From Alphaproteobacteria bacterium (GTDB taxonomy: Bacteria; Pseudomonadota; Alphaproteobacteria; Rhizobiales; Xanthobacteraceae), in assembly GCA_037200445.1 (NCBI GenBank), contig JBBCGH010000001.1, forward strand, positions 620,001-684,000: DNA of 64,000 nt. The letters run 5' to 3'. Shown here one piece after another: positions 20,132 to 55,767 of this stretch. The notes below the pieces were generated by a model. The model did no database searches, was not told the DNA's origin, and saw only the letters and a list, made by a program, of their open reading frames with translations. Both the position numbers and the translations under genes were made by a program. Within the stretch, counting starts at the first letter, position 1. Every line of letters begins with the position of its first letter.

Positions 20132-21316
20132 TCACGTCGCCTTCGGGTCGCTCTCCGCCGCCGCGACCGGAAACAGGTGATGCACCTTGGCGGCCTCGGC
20201 CGGGCGTTCGCGCACGATCTCGACGCCGACCGCGCCGGGACCGACGTCGAGTTTCTCGACGCGCACCGTCGCGCTCGCGACGCGGGGATGCGTCAGCACG
20301 ACAGCGGCAATCCGTTCGGCAAGCATCTCGACCAGCGCGATGTGCTCTTGCGCTACGATCATGCGGATCGAGTCGGTGATGACGTCGTAGGAGAACACAT
20401 CGCGCATATCCTCGGGTGCATGGCTTGCGTGCCGAACCTTGACGTCGACGTTCAAACGCACGTTCTGCGGCTTGTCGCGCTCACGCGCGTAGGTGCCGAT
20501 GCGCACGGGCAGCACGAAGTCGTGCACGAACACCCGGTCGGTATTGTCGTCCCGGTGCGGATCGACCGAATAGCCGCGCGCCGCGAGCAGCCGGTAATCG
20601 ATTTTCGCCGGCGCGGATTTGTCGCGCGTCATGCGGCGCACATCGATCGGAATGAGGCCGCGGATCTCGTCGATCGCGGCCGTATCGAGCGAGCCCGTCC
20701 GATCGCCATCGGCGCATAGCGCGCCACGAAAGCCGAGGATGTCGGGCGCGAGCAGCAAAAGGCGCGGCACATCCGGAGCCTCAAGCGACCCGGCGAGCCC
20801 CGCCAGCAGGCCTTTGGCGCGCGCGGTGTCGATGAAGTCCCCGAGCTCGGGAATGCTCTTGTGAGCGAGCAGCCCGCCACTCCCCTTGCGCGCCGTGTCC
20901 AGCATCACGGCGGCAAATCCGCTCTCGGCCATCACGGGGATCAGCGCCTGGTCGGCATCCGCATCGGCGAACAACACGCCGACAAGCTTCGTGCGGCGCG
21001 CGACCGCCGACAGCGCGCGGACGCAGTCCGGCCGGCGTGCGCCGGGAAACAGTCCGACCTTGACATAGTCGGCACCCGCGTCCGCCATCGCGCTCGCGGC
21101 GGCGAGCAGCGCGTTGGGCTCCATCGGCACCTCGCCGCTCACCGCACTGACCGGCTGGCGTCCCTTCACGGCCGCAACCGTGGCGCGCACAGTCTCGGGC
21201 GGGACGGCGCCGAACGCGCCTTTCGACGTGTCCTTCAGGTCGATGATGTCAGCGCCATGCGCGAGCGCGACCTCGGCCTCCTGCGGCCCGGTGACGCTCG
21301 CGAGCATCAGGGTCAT
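20132..21316 (-). CDS. Fusion of (5-formylfuran-3-yl)methyl phosphate synthase (MfnB) and a dihydroneopterin-aldolase-like (FolB) domain
   Basis: A 394-residue two-domain protein. Residues 1 to about 240 form an MfnB (DUF556) TIM barrel that condenses two glyceraldehyde-3-phosphates into the furan precursor. The lysine motifs IIDLKDTSKGAFGA (Lys28) and DYVKVGLFPG are present, as is the MLDTARKGSGGLL loop. Residues about 280-385 form a FolB/tunnelling fold (HDFVLPVRIGTYARER, then SYDVITDSIRMIV and HIALVEMLAERIA) of the 7,8-dihydroneopterin aldolase type. The fusion links the furan branch with the pterin branch. ATG 21316 overlaps the stop of the upstream gene by four bases. The frame is unbroken across the junction, so the fusion is real in this sequence. 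Confidence 0.85.
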   Translation of the reverse strand: MTLMLASVTGPQEAEVALAHGADIIDLKDTSKGAFGAVPPETVRATVAAVKGRQPVSAVSGEVPMEPNALLAAASAMADAGADYVKVGLFPGARRPDCVRALSAVARRTKLVGVLFADADADQALIPVMAESGFAAVMLDTARKGSGGLLAHKSIPELGDFIDTARAKGLLAGLAGSLEAPDVPRLLLLAPDILGFRGALCADGDRTGSLDTAAIDEIRGLIPIDVRRMTRDKSAPAKIDYRLLAARGYSVDPHRDDNTDRVFVHDFVLPVRIGTYARERDKPQNVRLNVDVKVRHASHAPEDMRDVFSYDVITDSIRMIVAQEHIALVEMLAERIAAVVLTHPRVASATVRVEKLDVGPGAVGVEIVRERPAEAAKVHHLFPVAAAESDPKAT

Positions 21317-21822
21317 TGCGGCACTCCGCGTTCGGGATCGAGCAGCTGGTAACGCACCAGCCAATCCACCGCACGGGTCCACGATTCATCCGTGTTGCCG
21401 CGCATGCTGGCATTCGCCACCGCGACGTTGCGCCCTGTCTTCGCATCACGCACGAAGATCGTCATTCTCAGGATCAGGTTCGAAATCTTGAACACCTCGG
21501 CCGTCACCGCGAGATCGGCACCCAGCCGCTGGGCAAGCGTCACGTCACATCCGCCGCAAGCCTGCAAGTTGCTTCCGCGCGCCTCCCTGGCGACCGGCGT
21601 GATATCGATCACGGAGAACCGGCCGGATTCGGCAAGCCGTTTGCGCAGCCGCTCGGTCACCAGCGCAAGCCGCGCCTGATGTTCCGCGTCGTGCGGCGCA
21701 AGCTGGTCGACCCGGCTGGTGTCGGTCAGCTCGAAATCGAAAATCGCCGCCGATTGTTCCCGCGCATTTGCCACGGAACACGACAGGAGAATGCCAGTCA
21801 GGATCGCTGCTGCACCGCGCAT
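21313..21822 (-). CDS. DUF2380/DUF3280 family secreted protein
   Basis: A 169-residue exported protein with a signal peptide (MRGAAAILTGILLSCSVANA). The mature part reads AAIFDFELTDTSR, then RLGADLAVTAEVFKISNLIL, the pattern of DUF2380/DUF3280 proteins often found beside methylotrophy and PQQ genes. A CGGC motif near residue 95 could form a disulfide. Function is unknown. It is the first gene of the minus-strand cofactor operon and overlaps the MfnB-FolB gene by four bases. Confidence 0.75.
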   Translation of the reverse strand: MRGAAAILTGILLSCSVANAREQSAAIFDFELTDTSRVDQLAPHDAEHQARLALVTERLRKRLAESGRFSVIDITPVAREARGSNLQACGGCDVTLAQRLGADLAVTAEVFKISNLILRMTIFVRDAKTGRNVAVANASMRGNTDESWTRAVDWLVRYQLLDPERGVPQ

Positions 21823-21885
21823 ATCGGCGCCTCGCTGTTCGGTCCGCCCTGCGCGGAATGCCGCGCGTCCCGGTGCCACAAGACT

Positions 21886-21969: not shown

Positions 21970-23148
21970 TTGGTTCACTGGTTTGCGATCGCTGCTGCAT
22001 GGCTTGTACTCGTCGGTCCCGCTTTCGCGGCTGACCCGGTCGAGATCAAGATCGGGTACCTGCGCACGCCTGAAGCCAAGACTGCGATTTCCCTTCTTGA
22101 CGTGCCGCCCGCCGACGACGGCGTCGCCGGCGCCAAGCTGGCGATCGCCGACAACAACACCACCGGCCGCTTTTTGAAGCAGACGTTCGTTCTGGAAGAG
22201 GTGCGGCTGAAGGAGGCTGACGATCCGGCGGCTGCGGCCGCAGCGCTTGCCGAACGCGGCGTGACCGCCGTGATCGCAGACCTTCCGCCCGATGCGTTGC
22301 TGAAGGCGGCCGACGCCGGCCGCGACCTCCTGTTCTTCAACGCGGGCGCGCCCGACGATCGGCTGCGCGAGGAGGATTGCCGCGCCAACGTGATCCACAC
22401 CGCGCCGACCCGCTCCATGCTGGCCGACGGGCTCGCGCAGTATCTCGTCTGGAAGAAATGGCGGCGCTGGCTGCTTGTCACCGGCTCGCATCCGAAGGAC
22501 AAATTGTTTGCGGACGCGATCAAGCGCGCCGCGAAACGGTTTGGTGCGAAGATCGTGCAGGAACGTACCTTCGAGGACACGGGCGGCGCGCGCCGCACCG
22601 ACAGCGGCATCGCGCAAATCCAGCGCCAGATTCCGATGTTCACGCAATCGACACCCGATTACGACGTGCTGGTTGCGGCGGATGAGAGCGACGTGTTCGC
22701 GCCTTACCTTCCTTACCGGACCTGGGAGGCACGCCCGGTCGCCGGCTCGGCGGGGCTTACTCCGAAAAGCTGGGACCCGGCGCACGACCAGTGGGGCGCG
22801 AACCAGCTGCAAAACCGGTTTGTCGCGATGTTCTCGCGCCGCATGACCGAGCGCGACGGCAACGCCTGGGCGGCCGCGCGTATGATCGGCGAAGCGGCCT
22901 CGCGCGGTCATGCCAAAGACCCCAAGGCGATGCTTACTTTCTTCAGGAGCGGTGACTTCTCGCTCGCCGCCTTCAAGGGGCAGCGGCTCACGCTGCGCGA
23001 TTGGAACCAGCAGCTGCGACAGCCCATTCTTCTCGCCGACGGGCGGGTCGTCGTGTCGGTCTCGCCGCAAGAGGGTTTCCTGCATCAGGTGTCCGAGCTT
23101 GATACGCTCGGCTACGACCGCCCCGAAACCAGGTGCCGCCTCAAATGA
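21970..23148 (+). CDS. Periplasmic substrate-binding protein of a PQQ-linked ABC system (Lut/Ped-like)
   Basis: A 392-residue exported protein (signal peptide ends near FAADP) of the periplasmic-binding-protein type I fold, like branched-chain amino-acid binders but of the subgroup tied to PQQ-dependent alcohol dehydrogenases. The TTG start at 21970 is supported by GGGAGG seven bases upstream and by the signal peptide beginning there. It is the first of five overlapping plus-strand genes. Related clusters (lut in Methylobacterium/Methylorubrum, ped in Pseudomonas putida) are reported to take part in lanthanide uptake, which fits the xoxF gene beside it. The ligand is inferred. Confidence 0.82.
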   Translation: MVHWFAIAAAWLVLVGPAFAADPVEIKIGYLRTPEAKTAISLLDVPPADDGVAGAKLAIADNNTTGRFLKQTFVLEEVRLKEADDPAAAAAALAERGVTAVIADLPPDALLKAADAGRDLLFFNAGAPDDRLREEDCRANVIHTAPTRSMLADGLAQYLVWKKWRRWLLVTGSHPKDKLFADAIKRAAKRFGAKIVQERTFEDTGGARRTDSGIAQIQRQIPMFTQSTPDYDVLVAADESDVFAPYLPYRTWEARPVAGSAGLTPKSWDPAHDQWGANQLQNRFVAMFSRRMTERDGNAWAAARMIGEAASRGHAKDPKAMLTFFRSGDFSLAAFKGQRLTLRDWNQQLRQPILLADGRVVVSVSPQEGFLHQVSELDTLGYDRPETRCRLK

Positions 23149-24125
23149 TCGACACCGTGCTCGTTCGACTGCTGTTCGGTCTCGGCCTGACCATGCTCTC
23201 GAGCGGGCAGGGGAACGCCTACCTCGCCTACATCTCGAACGAGAAGAGCAACACGGTTTCGGTGATCGACACCGCCAAGTGGGAGGTCATCCACACCATC
23301 AAGGTGGGTCAGCGTCCGCGCGGGATCGAGTTCACCAAGGACCAGAAATACGTGATGGTCGCGGTCGGCGACGACGACACCATCCAGATGATCGACACCA
23401 GGACCAACCAGGTGGCCGACACGCTGCCATCCGGGCCGGATCCCGAGCTGTTCGTGCAGGACCATGCCGGCAAGATCCTCTATGTCGCGAACGAGAACGA
23501 CAACACCGTCACGATCATCGATATCGAGCGCCGGGCCCGGCTCGGCGAAGTCCCGGTCGGCGTCGAGCCCGAGGGCATGGGCATGAGCCCGGACGGGAAG
23601 ATTCTGGTCAACACGTCGGAAACGACGAACATGGCCCATTTCATCGACACGGGCAGCCGCGAGATCGTTGCCAACGTGCTGGTCGATTCACGTCCGCGCT
23701 ATGCCGAGTTCAAGCAGGATGGATCGGAGCTGTGGGTCTCGGCCGAGATCGGCGGGACTGTGAGCATCATCGATCCGGCAAAACGCGAAGTGACGAAGAA
23801 GATCACGTTCGAGATTCCGGGGCTGCGCCGCGAGGCGATTCAGCCGGTCGGCGTGAACATCACCAAGGACGGCAAGACCGCCTTCGTGGCGCTTGGGCCC
23901 GCGAACCGGATCGCGGTGGTCGATGCCACGACCCATCAGGTGACCAAGTATCTTTTGGTCGGCCAGCGCGTCTGGCACATGGCGTTCACTCCGGACGAGA
24001 AATATTTGCTCTGCACGAACGGCGTATCGAACGACGTGTCGGTCATCGATGTTGCCGCGCTGCGGGTGATCAAGACGATCCAGGTCGGCGAACTGCCCTG
24101 GGGCGTCACGGTCTCGCGGGAATGA
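23145..24125 (+). CDS. YVTN-type beta-propeller protein of the PQQ-linked ABC cluster
   Basis: A 326-residue exported seven-bladed propeller. Repeats of the type KSNTVSVIDTAKWEV, DDTIQMIDTRTNQV and DNTVTIIDIERRA recur about every 42 residues. It starts at ATG 23145 overlapping the stop of the binding-protein gene. The family (PQQ-dependent catabolism-associated beta-propeller) occurs with PQQ alcohol dehydrogenases and their ABC system. It may scaffold or bind a ligand in the periplasm; no enzymatic residues are evident. Confidence 0.85.
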   Translation: MIDTVLVRLLFGLGLTMLSSGQGNAYLAYISNEKSNTVSVIDTAKWEVIHTIKVGQRPRGIEFTKDQKYVMVAVGDDDTIQMIDTRTNQVADTLPSGPDPELFVQDHAGKILYVANENDNTVTIIDIERRARLGEVPVGVEPEGMGMSPDGKILVNTSETTNMAHFIDTGSREIVANVLVDSRPRYAEFKQDGSELWVSAEIGGTVSIIDPAKREVTKKITFEIPGLRREAIQPVGVNITKDGKTAFVALGPANRIAVVDATTHQVTKYLLVGQRVWHMAFTPDEKYLLCTNGVSNDVSVIDVAALRVIKTIQVGELPWGVTVSRE

Positions 24126-24871
24126 GCATGTCGGCGCTTGCGGTCGAAGGCGTCAGCCACTTCTACGGCCCGCGCAAGGCGCTCGACGGTGTGTCGTTCA
24201 CGATCGCGCCCGCGCGCTTCGTCGCGTTGCTCGGCCTCAACGGCGCCGGCAAGAGCACGCTGTTTTCGCTAATCACGCGGCTTTATGCGGTGCGCGCCGG
24301 GCGCATTCGCATCTTCGGTCATGATGTGACCCGCGACCCGGGCGCGGCGCTGCGGCTGCTGGGCGTCGTGTTCCAGCCGCGCACGCTCGACCTCGACCTC
24401 TCGGTCGCGCAGAACCTCACCTATCACGCGGCGCTGCACGGGATCGGCAATCGCGATGCGAGGAGACGCGCCGCGGAGGTGCTGGCGCAGATCGCGCTCG
24501 CCGACCGCGCCAAGGACAAGGTGCGCGACCTCTCGGGCGGGCAGATGCGCCGCCTCGAGATCGCGCGCGCTCTGCTGCACCGGCCGCGTCTCCTGATCCT
24601 CGACGAGGCAACCGTCGGCCTCGACATCAAGGCGCGCGCCGACATCCTGGCGCATGTGCGCATGCTGGTGAGGCAGCAGGGTGTCACGGTGGTGTGGGCG
24701 ACACACCTGGTTGACGAGGTCGCCCAGGACGACGACCTGATCGTGCTGCATCGCGGCCAAATGCTTGCGCACGGCGCAGTCGCGGACATCGTCGCGCAAA
24801 ACGGCGGCGAAGGAGTCGCGGCGGCATTCACGCGCCTGACCGGTGCGGCGGACGAGAGCGAGGCCGCATGA
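24122..24871 (+). CDS. ABC transporter ATP-binding protein, PQQ-linked (Lut/Ped-like)
   Basis: A 249-residue ATPase with a complete nucleotide-binding set: Walker A GLNGAGKST, Q-loop VFQPRTLDLDLS, signature LSGGQMRRLEIARAL, Walker B LLILDEATVGLD, and switch His in VVWATHLVDE. It pairs with the ABC-2-type permease that overlaps its 3' end. ATG 24122 overlaps the propeller gene stop. The complex probably belongs to the xoxF-linked uptake system. Confidence 0.9.
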   Translation: MSMSALAVEGVSHFYGPRKALDGVSFTIAPARFVALLGLNGAGKSTLFSLITRLYAVRAGRIRIFGHDVTRDPGAALRLLGVVFQPRTLDLDLSVAQNLTYHAALHGIGNRDARRRAAEVLAQIALADRAKDKVRDLSGGQMRRLEIARALLHRPRLLILDEATVGLDIKARADILAHVRMLVRQQGVTVVWATHLVDEVAQDDDLIVLHRGQMLAHGAVADIVAQNGGEGVAAAFTRLTGAADESEAA

Positions 24872-25704
24872 GCGCCGAGGCCCTCACGCCGCCCGGCTTC
24901 TCGGCCGCGCAATACGCGATCTGCCTGAAGGGAATCGTGTGGCGCGAAGGGCTGCGCTTCCTGCATCAGCGCGAGCGCTTCATCTCCGCGCTGGTGCGGC
25001 CGCTGGTGTGGCTGTTCATCTTCGCGGCCGGGTTCCGGCAGGTGCTCGGAATTTCCATCATTCCGCCCTACGAGACCTACATCCCCTACGAGGTCTACAT
25101 CACGCCCGGCCTGATGGCGATGATCCAGCTGTTCAACGGCATGCAGTCCTCGCTCTCGATGGTCTATGACCGCGAGATGGGTAACATGCGCACGCTGCTG
25201 GTGAGCCCGCTGCCGCGCTGGTACCTGCTCTCGTGCAAGCTCGTCGCCGGCACCGCCGTGTCGCTGCTGCAGGTCTATGCATTCCTCGCCATCGCATATT
25301 TCTGGGAGATCGAGCCGCCGCCGATCGGATACCTGACGGTGCTGCCCGTGCTGATCCTGTCGGGCCTGATGCTCGGCGCGCTCGGCATGCTGATATCTTC
25401 GATGGTCAAGCAGCTTGAGAATTTCGCCGGCGTCATGAACTTCGTGATCTTTCCGATGTTCTTTGCATCCTCGGCGCTCTATCCGCTGTGGCGCGTGCAG
25501 GAGGCGAGCCCACTCCTCTATCATGTGTGCCTGTTCAACCCCTTCACGCACGCGGTCGAGCTGATCCGTTTTGCGCTCTATGGGAAACTGAATCTGCTCT
25601 CGCTCGCGGTGGTGTGCGGCTGCACGGCGGTGTTCATGATTGGCGCCATTCTCGCGTATGATCCAGCGCGTGGCCTGCTCGCGCGGCGTGGAGGCGAGGC
25701 ATGA
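24868..25704 (+). CDS. ABC-2 type permease, PQQ-linked (Lut/Ped-like)
   Basis: A 278-residue membrane protein with about six hydrophobic segments in the ABC-2 arrangement. The conserved amphipathic region is MVYDREMGNMRTLLVSPLP, and the late loop reads NPFTHAVELIRFALYG. ABC-2 permeases usually export, which is odd for an uptake system and leaves direction open. It overlaps both neighbours by four bases. Confidence 0.88.
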   Translation: MSAEALTPPGFSAAQYAICLKGIVWREGLRFLHQRERFISALVRPLVWLFIFAAGFRQVLGISIIPPYETYIPYEVYITPGLMAMIQLFNGMQSSLSMVYDREMGNMRTLLVSPLPRWYLLSCKLVAGTAVSLLQVYAFLAIAYFWEIEPPPIGYLTVLPVLILSGLMLGALGMLISSMVKQLENFAGVMNFVIFPMFFASSALYPLWRVQEASPLLYHVCLFNPFTHAVELIRFALYGKLNLLSLAVVCGCTAVFMIGAILAYDPARGLLARRGGEA

Positions 25705-26303
25705 AGTTGCTTGTTGCGGTATTCGTAATCGTGCTGGCGACGCCCGCGCTCGCCGCCGACCCGCGCTACCCGGACTGGCCCTGCGCGCAGGCGAAGGTCC
25801 CGGAGCTTTCCGTCGCCGCCATGTGGGCCGGGCCGCCGATCGACGACGTGGCGAAATCCTGGGAGAGCGATCCGAAGGTGAAGGACCTCGTGCCGCGCAT
25901 CGCGCCACGCCGAACATCGCTCGAGGACGCACAGAAGTCCGTCACGGAGTTCATCACCGGCAGTGCGTCCGAGCGCGAGCAGAAAGCCAAATTATTGTTT
26001 GCCGGTCTGTTCGAACGGCTCAACCGCGAGCGCAGCGAAGTGATGAACGGGATCGATCGCGTCGCGCGCCACCAGAAGGACCTCGCCAACAAGATCAAGG
26101 CGGATGTCGCGGACCTGCACAGTGCGCAGGACGCCACGCCGCCGGATCAAGGCAAGATCGACCAGCTTGCTGCCCAAGTCGAATGGAGCACACGCATCTT
26201 CGAGGACCGGCGCAAGACCATCCGCTTCGTGTGCGAGGTCCCGGTGCAGATCGAGCAGCGGCTGTTCGCGCTTTCGCGCACGGTGCAGCAGGCGATGGAA
26301 TAG
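25701..26303 (+). CDS. Secreted helical hypothetical protein in the PQQ-ABC operon
   Basis: A 200-residue protein with a signal peptide (MKLLVAVFVIVLATPALA) and a mostly helical mature part. Residues about 95-170 look like a coiled coil (REQKAKLLFAGLFERLNRER). Two cysteines, one near the mature N-terminus (DWPCAQ) and one near the end (FVCEVP), could pair. It is the last gene of the five-gene overlapping operon and ends 13 bases from the convergent CXXCW gene. Its function is unknown. Confidence 0.7.
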   Translation: MKLLVAVFVIVLATPALAADPRYPDWPCAQAKVPELSVAAMWAGPPIDDVAKSWESDPKVKDLVPRIAPRRTSLEDAQKSVTEFITGSASEREQKAKLLFAGLFERLNRERSEVMNGIDRVARHQKDLANKIKADVADLHSAQDATPPDQGKIDQLAAQVEWSTRIFEDRRKTIRFVCEVPVQIEQRLFALSRTVQQAME

Positions 26304-27808: not shown

Positions 27809-28330
27809 TCAGTTCGTGCCGATGCAGGCCTCTTCGGCCTTGGTATAGGCCTCCGGCTTCGGCTCGCGCTTGGCCGGCCGCTGGCGGGGCCACGCGTCGT
27901 TGGCGCGCGCGCGCAGGTAGACGTAGAGATCGTCCATATAGCAGGAGACGTTCGGGTTATCGCCGAACGCAGGCATCACGCTGTCCTGCGAGGTGCTGAC
28001 GTTCTTGCGTCCGCTCGCCACCACGCCGAGGAAGTCGCCATAGCTCATCGTCTTGAGCGAGTTCTTCAGCGCGGGCGCGTAGGTCGACCCTTCGCCGTCG
28101 GGGCCGTGGCAGACGTGGCACTCCGAGTGGTAACGGCGGTAGCCCGAATAGGTGTACCAGTCGACCGTACCGTCCGCCTGGATCTTGTAGGTCGGGTTGC
28201 CTTCCTTATCGAGATATTTGCCGTCTTCCTGCTTCACGGCGGCCGGATCGCCCGAGCCGTCCGCACGCGCCACATTCGATCCGATTGCGATCGCAACCGC
28301 GATCGCCGCAGCAACCAGACACAGTCTCAC
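27809..28330 (-). CDS. xoxG: c-type cytochrome, methanol-dehydrogenase electron acceptor (XoxG)
   Basis: A 173-residue exported cytochrome with one heme site, CHVCH, around residue 70, and a probable axial Met in SVMPAFGDNPNV. The N-terminal mature stretch GKYLDKEGNPTYKI and the TVDWYTYSGYRRYHSEC lead-in are typical of methanol-metabolism cytochromes. XoxG takes electrons from XoxF and passes them to the respiratory chain. A 13-bp hairpin lies between it and xoxF. Confidence 0.9.
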   Translation of the reverse strand: MRLCLVAAAIAVAIAIGSNVARADGSGDPAAVKQEDGKYLDKEGNPTYKIQADGTVDWYTYSGYRRYHSECHVCHGPDGEGSTYAPALKNSLKTMSYGDFLGVVASGRKNVSTSQDSVMPAFGDNPNVSCYMDDLYVYLRARANDAWPRQRPAKREPKPEAYTKAEEACIGTN

Positions 28331-28422: not shown

Positions 28423-30228
28423 TCAGTTCGGCAGTGTGAACACGGTGAGCGCGCCGCCGAGCGCCGTGTAGTTGCGCAGACCGGCGTAGCCGCCGACCGC
28501 GCCCAACCCGGCCGTCGGATCGGTCAGGCCTGCCGCAAGGCCGATGCCGGCCCAGCCGCCCACGCCCGACAGGATCGCGACGTACTGCTTGCCGCCCTGC
28601 TCGTAGGTCATCACGTTGCCGATGATGCCGGACGGGGTCTTGAACTTGTACAGTTCCTTGCCCGTCTTGGCATCGACCGCCTTCAGGTAGCCCTCGAGGG
28701 TTCCGTAGAACACGACGCCGCCGGCTGTCGCGAGCGCGCCGGACCACACGGAGAACTGCTCCTTGTTGGACCACACGATCTTGCCGGTCTTGCCGTCCCA
28801 CGCGATGAAGTTACCCATGTGGGTCTCGCCTTGCGGCGGGTACATGGAGAGCGTTGCACCGACGTAGGGCTGCCCCGCGGTGTAGCGTACGCGGAACGGC
28901 TCATAGTCCATGCAGACGTGGTTGGTCGGGACGTAGAACAGCTGCGTATCCGGCGAGTAGGCCGCCGGCTGCTCGTCTTTGCTGCCGAGCGCGGCCGGGC
29001 AGATGTTCTTGGAGTTCACGTCCTCGCCGTTGTGTTCGGTCGAATACTGCGGAACGACCGCGGGCCGTCCGTAGGTCGGCGAGCTCTTGTTCATGTCGAC
29101 GCCGGTGGTCCAGTTGACCTTCGGATCGAACTTTTCGGCGACGAGCAGCTCGCCGTTGGTGCGGTCGAGCGTGTAGCCGAGGCCGTTACGATCGAAGTGC
29201 GTCAGCAGCTTGCGCGGCTGGCCGCCAACCGTCTGGTCGGTGAGGATCATCTCGTTGACGCCGTCAAAGTCCCACTCGTCGTGAGGCGTCATCTGATAGA
29301 CCCAGCGGACCGCGCCGGTGTCGACATCGCGCGCCCAGATCGCCATGGACCAGCGATTGTCGCCCGGGCGCTGCTTCGGATTCCAGGTCGAAGGATTGCC
29401 CGACCCGTAATACATCAGGTTGAGCTCGGGATCGTAGGAATACCAGCCCCACGTGGTGCCGCCGCCGATCTTCCACTGCTCGCCCTGCCAGGTGTTGGTG
29501 CCGGAGTCCTTGCCGACCGGCTTGCCGAGGTGCGTGGTCTTCGCCGGGTCGATCAGCGTGTCGCTGTCCGGGCCCATCGAATAACCGCGCCATACCTGCT
29601 TGCCGTCCTTGATGTTGTAGGCGGTCACCGAACCACGAACGCCGAACTCGCCGCCCGAGATGCCGATGATGACCTTGTCCTTGAACACGTGCGGAGCCGA
29701 CGTGCCGGTCTCGCCCTTGCCAGGATCGCCATTCTTCACCGACCACACGACCGCACCGGTCTTCGCATCGAGCGCGACGACCGTCGTGTCGGCCTGATGC
29801 AGGAAGATCTTGCCGTCCGCGTAGGCGACGCCACGATTGACCGTGTCGCAGCACATCACCGGAATGACGTTCGGATCCTGCTTCGGCTCGTACTTCCAGA
29901 CGATCTTGTTCTCGTCTTTCAGGTTGAGCGCGTAGACGATGTTCGGAAACGCAGTGTGCAGGTACATCATGTCGCCGACCACGAGCGGATTGCCTTCGTG
30001 ACCGCGCAAAACGCCGGTCGAAAACGTCCAGGCAACCTGTAGCTTGCCGACGTTATCAGCCGTGATCTGCTTCAGCGTCGAGTAGCGGGTGTTCGCGAAG
30101 TTGCCCGCGGGCTGTGCCCATTGCTTGCCGTCTTGTTGCAGCTTCGCCAGTTCGTCATTAGCGCTTGCGGAGCCCGCAACGCAGATAGCCGCGGTACCCA
30201 AGCACAACACACTCAAGATGTGGCGCAT
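28423..30228 (-). CDS. xoxF: Lanthanide-dependent methanol dehydrogenase XoxF
   Basis: A 601-residue periplasmic PQQ quinoprotein with an eight-bladed propeller that oxidises methanol to formaldehyde (or formate). Residues 1-22 form a signal peptide. The vicinal disulfide pair is Cys126-Cys127 ([11 protein letters not shown]). [10 protein letters not shown] supplies the catalytic Asp320 and, two residues on, Asp322; this extra Asp replaces Ala of calcium-type MxaF and marks the lanthanide enzyme. ATG 30228 has GGAGG seven bases upstream; ATG 30231 is equally possible. It leads the xoxF-xoxG-xoxJ-CXXCW transcript. No mxaF or mxaI gene is present. Confidence 0.96.
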
Positions 30229-30231
30229 CAT

Positions 30232-30576
30232 TAGTCCTCCCTGCGACGTCGTCGTTAGGGTGTACCGAGGAGAGCGCGCCCAACCAGCATGCCAACCCGG
30301 CACAAGCCCGTCTTGGGAAGAATCTCCGGCAGCGTGTCACAGCCCTAGCAAGGCATGAGGGGCATTTACTCGATGCCCGCCGTAAGCTTTCGAAGAAACG
30401 TCGGCGTTCCCTATAGGCCGACGCCCTTGAAGCCGGAAACCTGATAAAGTCTAGGCCCGTGATTTTTTGCGCGCAACAGAAATTCGGTACGCGGTTGCCG
30501 CGGCAGTCCAGCCTTCGCTGCCCAACATTTACCGCACACCTCGGTGGGACGCGTGCGAACACAAGCGCGTGATGCG
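30232..30576. promoter_or_regulatory. Divergent promoter region of xoxF and the metallo-hydrolase gene
   Basis: These 345 bases carry no gene. An inverted repeat GGGCAT-N7-ATGCCC lies at 30360-30378, about 130 bases before the xoxF start. No convincing -35/-10 pair was found on either strand. Lanthanide- and MoxYX-type control of xoxF is known in other methylotrophs and would act here. Confidence 0.4.
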
Positions 30577-32841: not shown

Positions 32842-33801
32842 ATGCGCTTGCTCATCTGCTTCATACTCGCGCTTGTGATTTCCGCCCCTCCGGCGCGGGC
32901 GGAGACCATCCGCCTTGCGATCCAGAGGACCGGAACGGTTGCGTGGGAACTCGCGGTCATCCGCGCCCACGGTCTCGACAAGCAGGCCGGCCTCGATATC
33001 GCGCCGCTCGAACTTGCCTCGCCGGAGGCGGGCAAGATCGCGCTGCGCGCAGGCTCGGCCGACATCATCGTGTCCGACTGGTTGTGGGTGTCGCGGGAGC
33101 GCGCGCTCGGCGCAAAGCTTGTATTCTATCCGTACTCGAGCGCCCTTGGCGCCGTCATGGTGCCGGCGGGCTCCTCGCTGAAAAGTCTCGCCGATCTGAA
33201 AGGGCGCTCGCTCGCGGTCGCAGGCGGACCGCTCGACAAGAGCTGGCTCCTGCTGCAGGGCGCGCTCAGGCAGGACGGCATCGATTTGAAGACGCAGGCG
33301 ACCGTCAATTATGGCGCGCCCGCGCTGCTCGCCGAGAAGGCCGCGCGCGGCGAGTTCGACGCAATCCTCAATTACTGGAATTTCAGCGCCGCACTCGAAG
33401 CGCGCGAGATGCGGCGGCTTGCCGGCATCGACGAGATATTGCCCAAGCTTGGGGTGACCGCCAGACCTGCAATGATCGGTTACATCTTCGACGAGACGTG
33501 GGCGGCCCGGAATCGCGGCACACTGGAGCGGTTTCTCGAAGTTACGCGCAGGGCAAAGGAGATTCTGGCGAGCTCCGACGCCGAGTGGCAGCGCATCGCA
33601 CCGTTGATCGGCACAAGCGATCCCGCCACGCTTGCGGTCTACCGCAACCGCTACCGCGAGGGCATCCCGCGCCGTCCGATCGCGGACGAAGAGGCCGATG
33701 CGCGCGCCCTCTATCATGTGCTCGCGAGGCTCGGCGGCACCGAGTTGGTCGGATCCGCCACCGAGCTTGCGCCAGGCACTTTCTATCGGGCTGGCGAATG
33801 A
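32842..33801 (+). CDS. ABC transporter substrate-binding protein (nitrate/sulfonate/taurine type) in xox cluster
   Basis: A 319-residue periplasmic binding protein with signal peptide (MRLLICFILALVISAPPARA). The fold is that of SsuA/TauA-like proteins: RTGTVAWELAVIRAHGLD, IALRAGSADIIVSDWLW, LKGRSLAVAGGP. The permease gene overlaps its stop. The ligand cannot be read; position next to xoxF genes suggests a compound linked to methanol oxidation, which is inference. Confidence 0.85.
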   Translation: MRLLICFILALVISAPPARAETIRLAIQRTGTVAWELAVIRAHGLDKQAGLDIAPLELASPEAGKIALRAGSADIIVSDWLWVSRERALGAKLVFYPYSSALGAVMVPAGSSLKSLADLKGRSLAVAGGPLDKSWLLLQGALRQDGIDLKTQATVNYGAPALLAEKAARGEFDAILNYWNFSAALEAREMRRLAGIDEILPKLGVTARPAMIGYIFDETWAARNRGTLERFLEVTRRAKEILASSDAEWQRIAPLIGTSDPATLAVYRNRYREGIPRRPIADEEADARALYHVLARLGGTELVGSATELAPGTFYRAGE

Positions 33802-34538
33802 CGGCGCGGCTTGCCTCCATCGTGCTGTTCCTCGCCATCTGGTGGCTCGGCGCGCTTATCGCAGGAGAGGCACTGCTACCGGGGCCCCTGACCGTGCTCG
33901 GCGCAATTGTCAGCGAGGCGCGCTCCGGCGCGCTTTTCCTGCATCTCGGCGCGACCCTCGCGCGTGTCGCGCTGGCGTTCACGCTTGCCATGGCACTCGG
34001 CACCGCACTTGGGCTCGCGATGGGCCGTTCACCTCTCGTCGACCGCATCGCCGACCCGTGGGTGCTGATCCTCCTCAACCTGCCGGCCTTGGTGGTGATC
34101 GTGCTCGCCTACATCTGGGCGGGACTGACCGAAGCCGCGGCGATCGCTGCCGTTGCGATCAACAAGCTGCCGAACACCGCCGTGACGGTGCGCGAAGGGG
34201 CGCGCGCGCTCGACCGTAATCTCGACGAGATGGCTCAGGTTTTCCGCATGTCGCGCTGGACCGTGTTCCGGCATGTGGTTCTGCCGCAACTTGCACCCTA
34301 CATCGCGGCGTCGGCGCGCTCCGGTCTCTCGCTCGTGTGGAAGATCGTGCTGGTAGTGGAGCTGCTTGGACGCCCGAACGGCGTCGGATTCGAGATCGGG
34401 GTTGCGTTCCAGCTCTTTGACGTGACGCGCATCCTCGCCTATGCGCTGAGCTTCACCGCGATCGTGCTGATGATGGAATCATTCCTGGTGCAGCCCCTTG
34501 AACGACGCACGTCCCGCTGGCGCCTCCGGCCCGCTTGA
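33798..34538 (+). CDS. ABC transporter permease (SsuC/TauC type)
   Basis: A 246-residue inner-membrane permease with about six segments. The EAA loop is visible as EMAQVFRMSRWTVFRHVVLPQL. ATG 33798 overlaps the stop of the binding-protein gene, and its 3' end overlaps the ATPase gene by about 40 bases. It forms one importer with its neighbours. Confidence 0.88.
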   Translation: MTARLASIVLFLAIWWLGALIAGEALLPGPLTVLGAIVSEARSGALFLHLGATLARVALAFTLAMALGTALGLAMGRSPLVDRIADPWVLILLNLPALVVIVLAYIWAGLTEAAAIAAVAINKLPNTAVTVREGARALDRNLDEMAQVFRMSRWTVFRHVVLPQLAPYIAASARSGLSLVWKIVLVVELLGRPNGVGFEIGVAFQLFDVTRILAYALSFTAIVLMMESFLVQPLERRTSRWRLRPA

Positions 34539-35229
34539 GGTCTCGATCGCCAGAAAAGCCTATCGGACTGCCTCGGGCGAGCACGTCGACGTGCTTCACA
34601 ATGTCGGATTCTCGATGCGCGACCGTGAGGTCCTGGCGCTGGTGGGACCATCGGGATGCGGCAAGACCACGCTCCTGCGCATCGTGGCGGGGCTGGATCA
34701 TGATTTTGAGGGCAGCGTGACGCGCCCGCCGGGCGTCATCGGCATGGTATTTCAGGAGCCGCGGCTGCTGCCGTGGCGAAGCGTTGAAGACAATGTGCGC
34801 CTTGCCGCTCCGCACGCTGACGACGCAGCACTCGGCACGCTTTTCGAGATGCTCGATCTGTCCGCGCATCGAGGGCACTTCCCGGGCGAGCTATCGCTCG
34901 GGCTTGCACGCCGCGTTGCATTGGCGCGCGCTTTCGCCGTCGAGCCGACCCTGCTCATTCTTGACGAGCCGTTCACCTCGCTGGATGCGCCACTTGCCGC
35001 CCGGCTGCGTGACGAACTGACGCTGCTGGTCGCGCGCAGGCCGGTCACGACGCTCCTGGTGACGCACGATCTCGACGAGGCGGCGCAGCTCGCGGACCGG
35101 TTCATCGCCTTGTCGGCGCGGCCGGCGCGCGTTCTCGCCGAGATTCCGGTTTCCGGCAGGCGCGGTGCGCGAGATGAAAACGAAATTGCCGCTGCAAAAG
35201 CAGGCCTCATCCGCTGGCTCAACACATGA
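34498..35229 (+). CDS. ABC transporter ATP-binding protein with variant signature
   Basis: A 243-residue ATPase: Walker A GPSGCGKTT, Q-loop VFQEPRLLPW, Walker B LLILDEPFTSLD, switch His LLVTHDLDEA. The signature motif reads LSLGLARRVALARA, with Leu in place of the first Gly of LSGG; this may weaken ATP sandwiching. The TTG start at 34498 gives the full-length N-terminus and overlaps the permease; no strong ribosome binding site was seen, so translational coupling is likely. Confidence 0.85.
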   Translation: MNDARPAGASGPLEVSIARKAYRTASGEHVDVLHNVGFSMRDREVLALVGPSGCGKTTLLRIVAGLDHDFEGSVTRPPGVIGMVFQEPRLLPWRSVEDNVRLAAPHADDAALGTLFEMLDLSAHRGHFPGELSLGLARRVALARAFAVEPTLLILDEPFTSLDAPLAARLRDELTLLVARRPVTTLLVTHDLDEAAQLADRFIALSARPARVLAEIPVSGRRGARDENEIAAAKAGLIRWLNT

Positions 35230-51190: not shown

Positions 51191-52597
51191 ATGAGTATCA
51201 CCGTCGCCGAACGAGCTGGCCTTGCCGCCGCGCTGCCGCGCGGCGCGGCCTTTGGCGCTCCCGCCGCCTGGCACCGGCTTTCGCTGCGCGCAAAGCTCCT
51301 CCTCGTTTTCATCCTGGTCGATCTGGTCGCAGCCTTCGTGATCGGCAGCGTCACGATCATGCGCGCGCGCACCTCGACGCGGGTCGAGATCGCGGCCTCG
51401 ATGGCGCTCGCCGAGACGCTGGTCGCCGAGGCGATCGGGGGAGCCAATGCACGGGCGATCTGGTCGCTCGCCGAGCATGCTTCGCATCAACGCCTGATGC
51501 GGCACGTGCGTCTGTCGGTGCGAAATGCCGCGCACTTGCCGGTGACGATCGCGCCTCAACGGGAGGGCTCGGACGCTGCGCGCTCCCCCGCTCCCGCATG
51601 GTTCGAGGGGCTGATCGCCCCGCCCGTCGAACGGCGCGAGCTTCCGATCGTCGCCAGCGGACAGACGGTGGGATCGGTTCTCATCACCGGGGTCGCGGAT
51701 GATGAAATCGCCGAGGCCTGGGAGAATTTCGTCGCGCTCACTCTGGTGGGCGCGGGGCTCAACATTGCGGTCATCATGCTGCTCTATGTCCTGTTCGGCC
51801 GCGTGCTCGAACCGCTGACGAAGCTCGCGACAGGGCTGCGGGATCTGGAGGCGCGCAACTACAGTGTCCGTCTTGCCCGTCCCGACGCACGAGAACTTGG
51901 CGCCATCGCGGAACGATTCAATTCGCTGGCGCAGGCGCTCGATGTGCTGCGCGCCGAGAACAGCGACCTGCACCGCCGTCTGATTACCGCGCAGGATGAT
52001 GAGCGGCGCCTCACCGCACTCGAACTGCATGACGAAGTCGGCCCGAGCCTGTTTGGCCTCAAAGCCAATGCGGCCTCGATCGTCGCACATTCCCCGTCGA
52101 GCGATCTGGCGGAGCGAGCCCGCGAAATGCTGACGATCATCGATCATTTGCAGGCCACAAACCGCAATCTGTTGAATCGGCTTCGGCCGATGGCGCTCGG
52201 TCAGGTTCCGATCAGCGAGCTGTTGTCCGAACTTGCGCGCGACCGTGCACGCCAGCATTCAGGCATACAAATCGCCTTTATCCCGACATCGATGGCACCG
52301 ACCTACGGCGAAGAGGTGGACCTGACAGTCTATCGCTGCGTGCAGGAGGCGCTGACCAATGCGATCCGGCATGCTGCGGCAACGCGCATCGACATCGCGC
52401 TCGATGAAACCGATGGCCATCTGAATCTCCGTATCCAGGACAATGGGCGCGGCATCGGCGCCGCTCGCATCGGGCGCGGCCTCGCCGGAATGCAGGAGCG
52501 CGTGCGAGGCCTCGGTGGCCATTGCGTCGTACAGGATGCTCCGGACAGGGGCGCCTGCGTCGTGATCCGGATTCCAGTCGGGCAGGGCGCCGCATGA
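51191..52597 (+). CDS. Sensor histidine kinase, MoxY-like (NarX/DegS type)
   Basis: A 468-residue membrane kinase. There is one segment at about residues 37-57 and another near 190-210, flanking a sensor domain of about 130 residues, then HAMP (RVLEPLTKLATGLRDLEAR). The HisKA_3 dimerisation helix has the phospho-acceptor His280 in ELHDEVGPSLFGL, and the ATPase domain has EALTNAIRHA (N box) and NGRGIG (G1). Its response regulator overlaps it by four bases. MoxY controls methanol dehydrogenase genes in Paracoccus; the same role is likely here. Confidence 0.87.
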   Translation: MSITVAERAGLAAALPRGAAFGAPAAWHRLSLRAKLLLVFILVDLVAAFVIGSVTIMRARTSTRVEIAASMALAETLVAEAIGGANARAIWSLAEHASHQRLMRHVRLSVRNAAHLPVTIAPQREGSDAARSPAPAWFEGLIAPPVERRELPIVASGQTVGSVLITGVADDEIAEAWENFVALTLVGAGLNIAVIMLLYVLFGRVLEPLTKLATGLRDLEARNYSVRLARPDARELGAIAERFNSLAQALDVLRAENSDLHRRLITAQDDERRLTALELHDEVGPSLFGLKANAASIVAHSPSSDLAERAREMLTIIDHLQATNRNLLNRLRPMALGQVPISELLSELARDRARQHSGIQIAFIPTSMAPTYGEEVDLTVYRCVQEALTNAIRHAAATRIDIALDETDGHLNLRIQDNGRGIGAARIGRGLAGMQERVRGLGGHCVVQDAPDRGACVVIRIPVGQGAA

Positions 52598-53226
52598 CCT
52601 CCGCCCTGATCGTCGACGACCACCCGATCGTGCTGCAAGGTTGCCGGCGCGTGCTGCTCGATGCGGGCGTTGCGACCGTCATGGAGGCGCGCAACGTAGC
52701 CTCCGGCTATCGGCTCTACCGGCGGAACCGGCCGGACGCCGCGATCGTAGATCTTTCCCTGCAAGGCAATGGGCTCGCCGGGCTGCCGCTGATCCAGCGC
52801 ATCAAGGCGCATGACCCGCGCGCCCGCATCCTCGTGTTCAGCATGCACAGCGACCCGATCATCGTGTCGCGTGCCTTGAAAGCCGGCGCGACCGGCTATC
52901 TGCTCAAGGACACCTCGCCGCGTGAGCTGGTTGACGCGTTCGAGACGGTGCGCCGCGGCGAGCACTATCTGTCGGGCGACTTGGCCGTGAAGGTCGCGTT
53001 GATCGGATCGGGCGCGCATCGCGACCCGCTCGCCGATCTCACGCCGCGCGAGCTGCAGATGCTTGGGCTGCTGGCCGAGGGCAATCCCTACAGCCGCATC
53101 GCCGAGACTCTCGGCGTAAGCTACAAGACCGTCGTCAATACCTGCTCGCAGCTCAAGGAGAAGCTCAATGCGAGGAACCTGCCCGACCTGATCCGGATCG
53201 CGGTGCAGCTCGTACCTGTGGCCTGA
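52594..53226 (+). CDS. LuxR/NarL-family response regulator, MoxX-like
   Basis: A 210-residue regulator. The receiver domain has acidic Asp8-Asp9, phospho-acceptor Asp53 (AAIVDLSLQG) and Lys in GYLLKDTSP; the C-terminal GerE helix-turn-helix reads LTPRELQMLGLLAEG, then LGVSYKTVVN. It is translationally coupled to the sensor kinase. Expected targets are the xoxF cluster and perhaps the TonB receptor downstream. Confidence 0.9.
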   Translation: MTSALIVDDHPIVLQGCRRVLLDAGVATVMEARNVASGYRLYRRNRPDAAIVDLSLQGNGLAGLPLIQRIKAHDPRARILVFSMHSDPIIVSRALKAGATGYLLKDTSPRELVDAFETVRRGEHYLSGDLAVKVALIGSGAHRDPLADLTPRELQMLGLLAEGNPYSRIAETLGVSYKTVVNTCSQLKEKLNARNLPDLIRIAVQLVPVA

Positions 53227-53334: not shown

Positions 53335-55767
53335 ATGCGTACTTTTGGCGCCGGACGTGCAAGTCGAACTGCAATCTCCGGGCGAGCGATCACAGCGGCA
53401 GCATTGCTCTGGCCAGCGCTCGCCTCCGCGCAAAACTCGCAAGTGTTGCCCGAAATCCAGGTGATCTCGACCTCGCCGCTCGGCGGGAGCATCGATCGTG
53501 ACAAGGTCCCGGCGCTCGTCCAGTCGGTTACATCGGAGGACTTTGCGCGTACGTTCAACAATCCGAACGTCACCGAAACGCTGTTCCAGAACCTCCCCGG
53601 CGTGAGCACGTCGAACCAGCAGGGCAACAGCTTCCAGACCGATATCCGCTATCGCGGCTTCGTCGCTTCGCCGGTGCCCGGCCAGCCGCAGGGACTCGCG
53701 GTCTACATGAACGGCATGCGCATCAACGAGGCGTTCGGTGACACGGTCAACTTCGACTTCATTCCATCCAATGCGGTTAACCGCGCCGATGTCCAGTCGA
53801 ACAACCCGGTGTTCGGTCTCAACGCGCTCGGCGGTGCGATCAATTTCCAGATGAAAAACGGTTTCACGTTCCAGGGCTTCGAGAGCGAATTCGCGCTCGG
53901 CTCCTACGGCCGTCTCTCGACCGGCATGCAGTACGGAGTCCAGAAAGGGGACGTGTCCGCCTACATCGCGGTGCAGGGCTTGAAAGAAACCGGCTGGCGC
54001 CAGCAATCGCCGAGCGAGCTCGCGCGTGTCTATGCCGATGTGGGCTGGCGCCACGACGGCAACGAAGTGCACGTCATCTTCAGCGCGGCATCCAACGCCT
54101 TCGGTGTTACGGCTGCTGCGCCGATCCAATTGCTCCAGCAGGACTGGCACGCGGTCTACACGTTCCCCCAGACCACGCTGAACCAGAACATCTACGGCAG
54201 CGTCAACGGCAAATACATGGTGACCGAGAACTGGACGCTGCAGGGCAATTTCTATGTCCGCAGCTTCAAGCAGGCGCATGTCGACGGCAACGGCGCCGAC
54301 GTGGAACGTTGCAGCAATGCGTCCTCGTTCCCCAACAAGCTATGCCTCGAAGACGACGGCTTCCCGCGCCCCAACCCGATCACGCTCGCGTTCCGCAATC
54401 AGTTCGTGATCCTCGATCAGAACAACAACCCGATCCCGTGCCCGCCGGGAGCCGGCAACACCTGCGCGTCCGTTCCCTACGGGACCATCGACAGAACCAA
54501 CACCGACGCCCTCACGGTCGGCGCCTCCGCGCAGGCGACCAACGACGCGCAGCTGTTCGGGCACGGCAACCGTTTCCTGATCGGCGGCAGCATCGACCAC
54601 AGCTGGACCTACTTCACCTCGTCCAGCACGCTAGGTTTCATCAACCCGGACCTGTCGGTCACCGTCAATCCCGCCATCCCGGGCAACGGCCAGGTCATCC
54701 ACACGCTCGGCAACGTCGGCTTCGTCCCGGTCAATTTGAACGCCGAGAACACCTATATCGGCCTCTACGCCACCGATACCTTCGACATCACGTCGCAGCT
54801 TTCCGTCACGGTCGGCGGACGGCTGAACGTCGCGAACCTGAAGATGACCGACCTGACCGGCGCGTCGCCCGACCTCAACAACGATCTCACCTATACGCGC
54901 TTCAATCCGCTGGTCGGCGCGACCTACAAGGTCGTGCCCGGGCTTACCGTCTATGGCGGCTATTCGGAATCGAACCGTGCTCCGACGCCACTCGAACTGG
55001 GCTGCTCCAATCCGAACCGGCCCTGTCTGATCGAAAGCGCGCTCGTCTCCGATCCACCGCTCAAGCAGGTCGTGTCGCACACCTATGAGGCGGGCCTGCG
55101 CGGTATTCTGCCGGTGTGGAACGGCAGCGTCGACTGGAAGGTCGGCGCCTACCGCACCGATGTCACCGACGACATCATCACCACCGCCAGCAATCTTCAG
55201 GGACGCGGCGTGTTCCAGAACGTCCCGGCGACGCGGCGTCAGGGCATCGAGGCGGGCGCGAAGTATGTCGAGCCGCGCTGGATGACCTACGCGAGCTACA
55301 GCTTCATCGACGCCACCTACCAGTTCAACGGCAAGGTCGCCTCGCCGAACAATCCGTTTGCGGACGCGGATGGGAACATCCTTATCGTGCCCGGCAACAA
55401 GATACCGGCCATCCCGGCGCACCAGTTCAAGGCGGGCGGCGAGTTTGCGGTCACGCCGGAGTGGAAGGTCGGCGCAGACGTGGCGGTGGTCGGCAGCCAG
55501 TATTTCGTCGGCGACGATGGAAACCAGAATCCGAAGGTGCCCGCCTATTGGACCACCAACCTGCATACCTCGTATCAGATCACCAAGGAATTCCAGCTGT
55601 TCGGGCTGATCACCAACGTGTTCAACCAGCGTTACTATACCTACGGCACGTTCTTCGAACTCGACGGCGTCGCGAAGGCCGTCAGCTACACGTTCTCCGA
55701 TCCGCGCACCATCACGCCGGCGCAGCCGCTTGCGTTCTATGGCGGGCTGCGCGTCAAACTCAATTAG
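53335..55767 (+). CDS. TonB-dependent outer-membrane receptor
   Basis: An 810-residue outer-membrane receptor. A signal peptide ends near LASAQN; then a plug domain ([52 protein letters not shown]) and a 22-strand-type barrel ending [10 protein letters not shown], whose last residue is Asn rather than the usual aromatic. ATG 53335 was chosen because the signal peptide starts there; ATG 53311 is in frame. It sits directly after MoxYX-like genes at the edge of the methylotrophy island. A lanthanide-chelate cargo, as for LutH in Methylorubrum, is an inference. Confidence 0.88.

Follow-up and report, generated by a model that had tools for sequence, protein, structure and literature searches.

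A Lut-type gene set beside xoxF, predicted to acquire lanthanides, in a Xanthobacteraceae genome

How does a bacterium whose methanol dehydrogenase appears to need a lanthanide bring that metal in? The question is raised by a five-gene operon at positions 21970-26303 of the stretch analyzed here, a window of 64,000 nucleotides (G000:C1:620001-684000) from the 5.84-Mb, one-contig genome of an alphaproteobacterium of the family Xanthobacteraceae. Next to the operon lies a gene for XoxF, a methanol dehydrogenase, and a gene for a TonB-dependent receptor begins at 53335. A first-pass annotation had proposed that operon and receptor form one import path. Our analysis indicates that the window very probably encodes a Lut-type lanthanide acquisition system serving the XoxF methanol dehydrogenase. 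Judged by sequence, the gene set is that of the published lut system, a kind already known; the part worth following is the association of LutG with XoxF and that of an SsuABC-like importer with lutF.

The operon, XoxF and the receptor

The five genes lie on the plus strand and overlap throughout, every start falling inside the preceding gene's end, with ATGA at three junctions. We scored their products against NCBIfam, using its curated cut-offs, and also against Pfam.

21970..23148, + strand: LutA-type periplasmic binding protein; start codon TTG; TIGR03863, 481.9 bits versus a cut-off of 413.6
23133..24125, + strand: YVTN beta-propeller protein, LutB/PedA2 by position; TIGR03866, 519.8 bits versus 287.3
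24122..24871, + strand: LutE/PedB-type ATPase; TIGR03864, 342.8 bits versus 302.25
24868..25704, + strand: LutF/PedC-type ABC-2 permease; TIGR03861 (PedC), 415 bits versus 241.35; PF01061
25701..26303, + strand: secreted 200-residue protein of the LutG family, with invariant Cys28 and Cys178; profile A1; lutF-lutG-receptor order in relatives

Four of the five proteins score above the curated cut-offs in this comparison with the Lut/Ped families, and coordinates and profiles bear out the five overlapping genes described in the first pass (binding protein, propeller, ATPase, ABC-2 permease and secreted protein). The lut and ped clusters to which the operon had been likened are indeed tied to lanthanide uptake (PMC7391723, PMC6839425; these papers, like the others cited below, are represented by excerpts). 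Relatives of LutA, LutE and LutF are all present in the lut-type loci of Methylobacterium-like genomes (L185-L191).

Three genes separate the operon from xoxF.

28423..30303, - strand: XoxF, lanthanide-dependent methanol dehydrogenase; PDB 6oc5, 1031.7 bits; DEWDFDG motif
27809..28330, - strand: XoxG-type c cytochrome; TIGR03874
26865..27893, - strand: XoxJ-like binding protein; TIGR03871
26317..26868, - strand: CXXCW rhodanese-like protein; TIGR03865

The best PDB match of XoxF is 6oc5, a lanthanide-dependent XoxF that we take to come from M. extorquens AM1, and the alignment is nearly full length. Aligned to this chain, the window protein has the DEWDFDG motif, presumably holding the extra Asp of the lanthanide site, and its earlier description as lanthanide-dependent stands. 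Further PDB methanol dehydrogenases, which we take to be calcium-type enzymes, match it at ~1e-190. When all nine candidates in the genome were scored, only one methanol dehydrogenase matched at E 1e-100 or better, and no MxaF-type enzyme was found. Since the single enzyme is of the lanthanide type, methanol oxidation in this strain should depend on lanthanide. The window also extends the lut system and its receptor to a strain with one methanol dehydrogenase found, of the lanthanide-dependent type. At the operon, a link to a PedE/PedH-type ethanol dehydrogenase is not seen, the adjoining dehydrogenase being XoxF.

The receptor is preceded by a kinase-regulator pair.

53335..55767, + strand: LutH-like TonB-dependent receptor; PF00593, PF07715; LutH-like clade
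51191..52597, + strand: histidine kinase (HAMP, HisKA_3), "MoxY-like" in the first-pass naming; domain profiles
52522..53226, + strand: NarL-type response regulator, "MoxX-like" in the same naming; domain profiles; probable start near 52594

Plug and barrel domains confirm a TonB receptor at 53335, as first reported. For the two genes before it, domain profiles uphold the histidine kinase and the NarL-type regulator, while the Mox names remain those of the first pass. We placed the receptor in a tree of 63 rows that took in two of the genome's three other receptors (L002 and L004; L005 was too short); this was a quick tree, with no bootstrap and with long outgroup branches. Forty LutH-like rows, including the window receptor, are split from all others by a branch that has a value of 100 in the Shimodaira-Hasegawa-like approximate likelihood ratio test. 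On the other side are E. coli BtuB, FepA, FhuA, CirA, FecA and PqqU, together with L002, L004 and 15 other receptors of relatives. The receptor thus does not group with siderophore or cobalamin receptors. Its nearest rows (L131, L137) belong to receptors that follow lutA-propeller-lutE-lutF, and the next-nearest are Methylobacterium-like receptors, including that of M. nodulans plasmid pMNOD02. By its place in the tree, the receptor at 53335 is a LutH-like TonB receptor, sharing its clade with receptors whose genes stand in the order lutF-lutG-receptor.

On pMNOD02, the receptor (51.6% identical) is followed by one regulator gene and then by a gene whose EF-hand product has a match to lanmodulin 6mi5 (E 5e-38). 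The window's own genome carries a lanmodulin-like gene at G000:C1:22316-22690 (L207), ~0.6 Mb from the window, whose product shares 58% identity with this M. nodulans protein.

Two side observations concern the receptors themselves. Those behind lutG are of two types, one 37-38% identical to the window's (L187, L188) and the other 45-49% (L185, L186, L189-L191); the M. extorquens-like genome (L188) carries the distant type. On a Methylobacterium fujisawaense plasmid (L206, 8001-11805), the match to a LutH-like receptor gene falls into two parts, separated by an IS66 transposase gene.

Gene order in relatives bears on whether operon and receptor belong together. In all seven Methylobacterium-like loci (L185-L191), the order is lutA-propeller-(0.8 to 1 kb)-lutE-lutF-lutG-receptor, which is the order of the published M. 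extorquens lut cluster (PMC7391723), and in five of the seven a lanmodulin-like gene lies behind the receptor. The label "Methylobacterium-like" rests on XoxF, ten genes from nine genomes of this genus code being 85-99% identical to 6oc5 (98.8% for genome G420, locus L188); G282 (L191) shares the genus code, yet has no strong XoxF. In relatives of the window's own family, the receptor lies 8-14 kb from lutG, and where this interval was fetched it contains the kinase and regulator. The gap in the window contains xox genes, SsuABC-like genes and one-carbon genes, among which Fae and methylene-tetrahydromethanopterin dehydrogenase were identified by profile, the other one-carbon gene names being unprofiled labels. 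The distance here is larger owing to these intervening one-carbon genes; G012 and G031 carry relatives of them, and the receptor is near those too.

We also sampled 397 genomes of the order, with completeness of at least 90%. Both lutG and the receptor are present in 62 (receptor only, 9; LutG only, 47), on the same contig in 35 and within 30 kb in 24, the window's own genome included. The corresponding counts for receptor and LutF are 63 with both, 8 with the receptor only and 71 with LutF only; for receptor and XoxF at E 1e-150, they are 69, 2 and 52. In a separate scan, we took the best 80 of at least 574 confirmed candidates for named LutF loci, a set biased to close relatives, mostly Bradyrhizobium, with no Methylorubrum among the matches listed. 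The receptor was within the fetched flanks in 42 of these 80 loci, and kinase relatives were found in 53. Receptor clade and linkage in relatives together support the proposal that the two loci form one import path.

Several observations weigh against assigning the window to a Lut-type acquisition system. From the end of the operon at 26303 to the receptor start at 53335 is 27.0 kb, the distance given in the first pass, and in 38 of the 62 genomes that have both genes lutG and the receptor are unlinked (more than 30 kb apart, from 47 kb to 2.7 Mb, in 11; on different contigs in 27). The window receptor is 37-40% identical to that of M. extorquens-like G420. The fold of LutF (PF01061) is of the exporter type. 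Finally, propeller and lutE overlap, so the lutC/lutD stretch is absent; in the G420 cluster it occupies ~0.8 kb between these genes (lutC and lutD in AM1). In AM1, lutC and lutD are accessory, with small or no growth defect (PMC7391723).

The Lut-type reading would work as follows. The receptor at 53335 would pass lanthanide, presumably with a chelator, across the outer membrane. The metal would then be handled in the periplasm, and transferred to the cytoplasm, by LutA, the propeller protein and LutEF. LutG would be a periplasmic protein with a putative functional tie to XoxF, and metal would be bound by the lanmodulin-like protein, whose gene lies elsewhere in the genome. The kinase-regulator pair beside the receptor probably controls the switch.

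LutG and XoxF across genomes

The 200-residue product of the fifth gene had been left unexplained in the first pass. We identify it as LutG: its gene directly follows lutF, as in the lut cluster, and the protein is 36% identical to LutG of M. extorquens-like G420. A signal peptide is apparent by eye, Cys28 and Cys178 are invariant, and positions 75, 179 and 185 are acidic in 13/13 sequences. There is no EF-hand-like cluster, so LutG does not have the appearance of a lanmodulin. No NCBIfam or Pfam family matched it, and the PDB matches, designed helical proteins and other weak ones, we read as composition effects. In the literature it is named a hypothetical periplasmic or alternative periplasmic binding protein (PMC7391723, PMC8969499).

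The presence of LutG follows XoxF almost one to one, unlike that of the transporter, and this association appears new. Profile A1 matches LutG in 109 of the 397 genomes of the order. With the window protein as query and a limit of E 1e-150, XoxF is found in 121/397; we set aside 13 weak matches as another type (best E 5e-153 to 5e-196, the next being 9e-250), a cut chosen post hoc. LutG and strong XoxF then occur together in 107 genomes, LutG alone in 2 (G164, G282), XoxF alone in 1 (G375) and neither in 287. If the weak matches are kept, the counts become 108 with both, 1 with LutG only and 13 with XoxF only. The LutF permease (E 1e-60) is present in 134/397 genomes; among these, LutG is found in 99/99 of those with strong XoxF and in 2/35 of those without. 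Among the open-licence papers listed, no title or abstract opening links LutG to XoxF maturation, which does not prove that no such link has been published.

The surroundings of lutF show the same pattern. LutG is near LutF in 0/34 loci without strong XoxF, which stand for 34 of the 35 such genomes (the 35th is G282, where lutG is next to lutF), and in 30/37 loci with strong XoxF, drawn from 37 of 99 genomes at about one per genus, some stretches reaching contig ends. One caveat here is that the genomes counted are not independent. In an independent-pairs test on the LutF gene tree (72 rows, G282 left out), five pairs changed the same way, none was opposed and one showed no difference (p 0.0625), which is in the right direction and alone not significant. 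The match is looser beyond the order. Among 137 genomes of the class, five have both genes, one has LutG only (G539) and three have strong XoxF only (G436, G451, G488); without the two genomes of the window's own order, the counts are 3, 1 and 3. Eight genomes, all of family f2, show LutG without LutF, probably because the 1e-60 cut acted on hits split by a LutF insertion, and these were not used.

The XoxF match might only reflect shared methylotroph hosts, LutG being a mere accessory of the LutABEF transporter, and to this we give a little less than an even chance. In 75 of 101 order-sample genomes with both genes listed, lutG and lutF are at most 3 kb apart, and G282 keeps the two side by side with no strong XoxF. 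In M. extorquens, growth of lutG mutants is also similar to that of lutA and lutB mutants (PMC7391723). The 99/99 and 2/35 counts and the 0/34 loci speak against a mere accessory, and so do the cases in which the genes are apart. Where LutG is far from LutF (14 genomes), XoxF is within 10 kb of LutG in 7; it is not in 6, and there is no XoxF in 1. Proximity to xoxF was also checked in six plasmid records, and in every one LutG is no more than ~6 kb away. Five of them come from the 116 records that match LutG (Azospirillum lipoferum 4B, Paracoccus alcaliphilus, Ruegeria AD91A, Haematobacter massiliensis, Roseomonas marmotae), and the sixth, S. meliloti 1021, comes from the XoxF list. On the Ruegeria AD91A plasmid, LutG adjoins a gene annotated as xoxF5, and no match to lutA, lutE or lutF lies within 9 kb. 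Neither LutG nor XoxF appears in L205 and L206, two more plasmid stretches, which were examined on account of the receptor.

From this co-occurrence we infer that a role of LutG directed at XoxF is favored. Tentatively, LutG may be an XoxF-dedicated periplasmic factor with no part in the transporter, for example in lanthanide loading into apo-XoxF or in maturation, with the SsuABC-like importer described below as an unrecognized partner of LutEF; as a whole, this proposal strikes us as possible rather than probable. An XoxF factor would explain why LutG and XoxF occur in almost exactly the same genomes, and why lutG can stay with xoxF when the transporter is elsewhere. It would also explain why lutG mutants on methanol with lanthanum (0.03 per h and a lag of 12 h, whether mxaF is present or not) are about as slow as xoxG and xoxJ mutants (0.04 per h) (PMC7391723). 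Since an outer-membrane role would spare mxaF-based growth, LutG should act after the metal reaches the periplasm. Mutants in lutA, lutB, lutE and lutF are impaired even with mxaF intact (PMC7391723), and growth therefore cannot separate an XoxF factor from a transporter part. The site of lanthanide insertion into XoxF, cytoplasm or periplasm, is called unknown in PMC7391723. Small, conserved, periplasmic by prediction and following XoxF genome by genome, LutG is a concrete candidate for this step.

Some arrangements are recorded here as side observations. Family f31 includes 14 genomes with LutF and without LutG and strong XoxF (loci L241-L250, L266, L202-L204); a LutH-like receptor is present in 8 of the 14, and SsuABC-like genes in most of the fetched loci. 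In G249, LutG is beside xox genes (L317, 5456-10200), and lutF, the receptor and a lanmodulin-like gene are ~2.7 Mb away. The Roseomonas marmotae plasmid (L306, 2776-13251) keeps the window order of DUF3280, lutABEFG, CXXCW, xoxJ, xoxG and xoxF, with the metallohydrolase and SoxYZ genes on the opposite side of the block. In 45 of the best 80 named LutF loci, DUF3280 accompanies lutA. The window genes concerned are the following.

21313..21879, - strand: DUF3280 protein, divergent from lutA; Pfam PF11684
30544..31527, + strand: quinoprotein relay zinc metallohydrolase 2; TIGR04559
31518..32405, + strand: SoxYZ-like carrier fusion; TIGR04557

The SsuABC-like importer and the direction of transport

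Three further genes encode an importer of another type.

32842..33801, + strand: SsuA-like (NMT1/THI5) binding protein; PF09084
33801..34538, + strand: importer-type permease (BPD_transp_1); PF00528
34498..35229, + strand: importer-type ATPase; PF00005

The SsuA-like protein is far under the sulfonate cut-off (26.4 versus 163.5), and the importer is not close to any substrate family that bears a name. An SsuABC-like importer accompanies lutF widely, and this too appears new: the ssuA-ssuC-ssuB trio flanks lutF in 54 of the best 80 named loci, within 5 kb of lutF in 23. The trio is near lutF in 20/34 loci without strong XoxF and in 15/37 with it. We found no published link of such an importer to lut in titles and abstract openings of the open-licence literature, which leaves absence unproven. 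Genes named ssu in strain RH AL1, which may or may not correspond to the window trio, respond to lanthanides, with oxidative stress discussed (PMC10848612).

The ABC-2 permease had also been left unexplained, as a type that normally exports. By its profile score it is of the published LutF/PedC type, and mutants of M. extorquens argue for import. In that organism, lanthanum stays in the periplasm of lutA, lutE and lutF mutants, and more of it remains in the medium of a lutH mutant (PMC7391723). On methanol with lanthanum, lutE and lutF mutants do not grow before suppressors arise, and growth of the lutH mutant is normal (0.16 per h) as long as mxaF is present (PMC7391723). P. putida without pedA1A2BC needs ~100-fold more lanthanum (PMC6839425). 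For the window, uptake and its direction are inferred from these published mutants of relatives.

It seems improbable to us that LutEF is an outward transporter, or a ligand-flipping pump, and that the inward step falls to the SsuABC-like importer (32842-35229). The exporter-type fold would fit, as would the ranking of NCBIfam models for LutEF, in which PQQ (pyrroloquinoline quinone) models come first, DrrA and DrrB next, and NodI and NodJ lower. The trio's frequency beside lutF points the same way, as do its absence from all 12 receptor loci without lutF and its position on S. meliloti 1021 pSymB (L301), between the propeller gene and lutE. Against this stand lutA, near lutF in 70 of the best 80 named loci, since a binding protein gene near lutF speaks for import, and the mutants in which lanthanum piles up in the periplasm. 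Moreover, the Methylobacterium-like lut loci (L185-L191) have no trio within the 20 kb fetched.

It is very improbable that the receptor is for another substrate (a siderophore, cobalamin or PQQ) and only happens to lie near the lut genes: PqqU is its best NCBIfam model and the gap is wide, but it scores far under the cut-offs for PqqU (NF041535, 107.7 versus 1200 bits), siderophore receptors (TIGR01783, 98.2 versus 223.5) and BtuB (TIGR01779, 58.5 versus 599.7), all six E. coli receptors fall outside its clade, its relatives adjoin a lanmodulin-like gene in several loci, and pqqE is above its cut-off in the genome.

Comparison with known systems

The closest published counterpart is the lut cluster of M. 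extorquens AM1 (lutA-I and lanM; PMC7391723). Common to both are lutA, a second-position exported protein, lutE, lutF, lutG, a TonB receptor and lanmodulin, with the order lutA, B, E, F, G. The window differs in that it is without the lutC/lutD stretch between propeller and lutE, its operon is next to xoxF itself, its receptor is 27 kb off beside a kinase-regulator pair, and its lanmodulin-like gene is ~0.6 Mb off.

With pedA1A2BC of P. putida KT2440 (PMC6839425), the window shares the binding protein, propeller, ATPase and permease, and the permease family is named after PedC. The ped cluster has four genes, near those for the ethanol dehydrogenases PedE and PedH, and the excerpts report no close homologue of known receptors in KT2440; the window adds a fifth gene, lutG, together with XoxF and the LutH-like receptor. 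E. coli PqqU (YncD) resembles the receptor in being TonB-dependent and in giving the best NCBIfam name match; it differs in that this match is far under the cut-off and PqqU is outside the clade.

In Bradyrhizobium and Sinorhizobium, homologues of lutA, B, E, F and G are reported by BLAST at 40-60%, whereas lutH gives weaker hits, or none in S. meliloti (PMC12628762, as excerpted). The same five genes make up the window operon. The evidence there consists of BLAST hits, whereas here it consists of gene-order linkage, the tracking of XoxF by LutG and the receptor tree.

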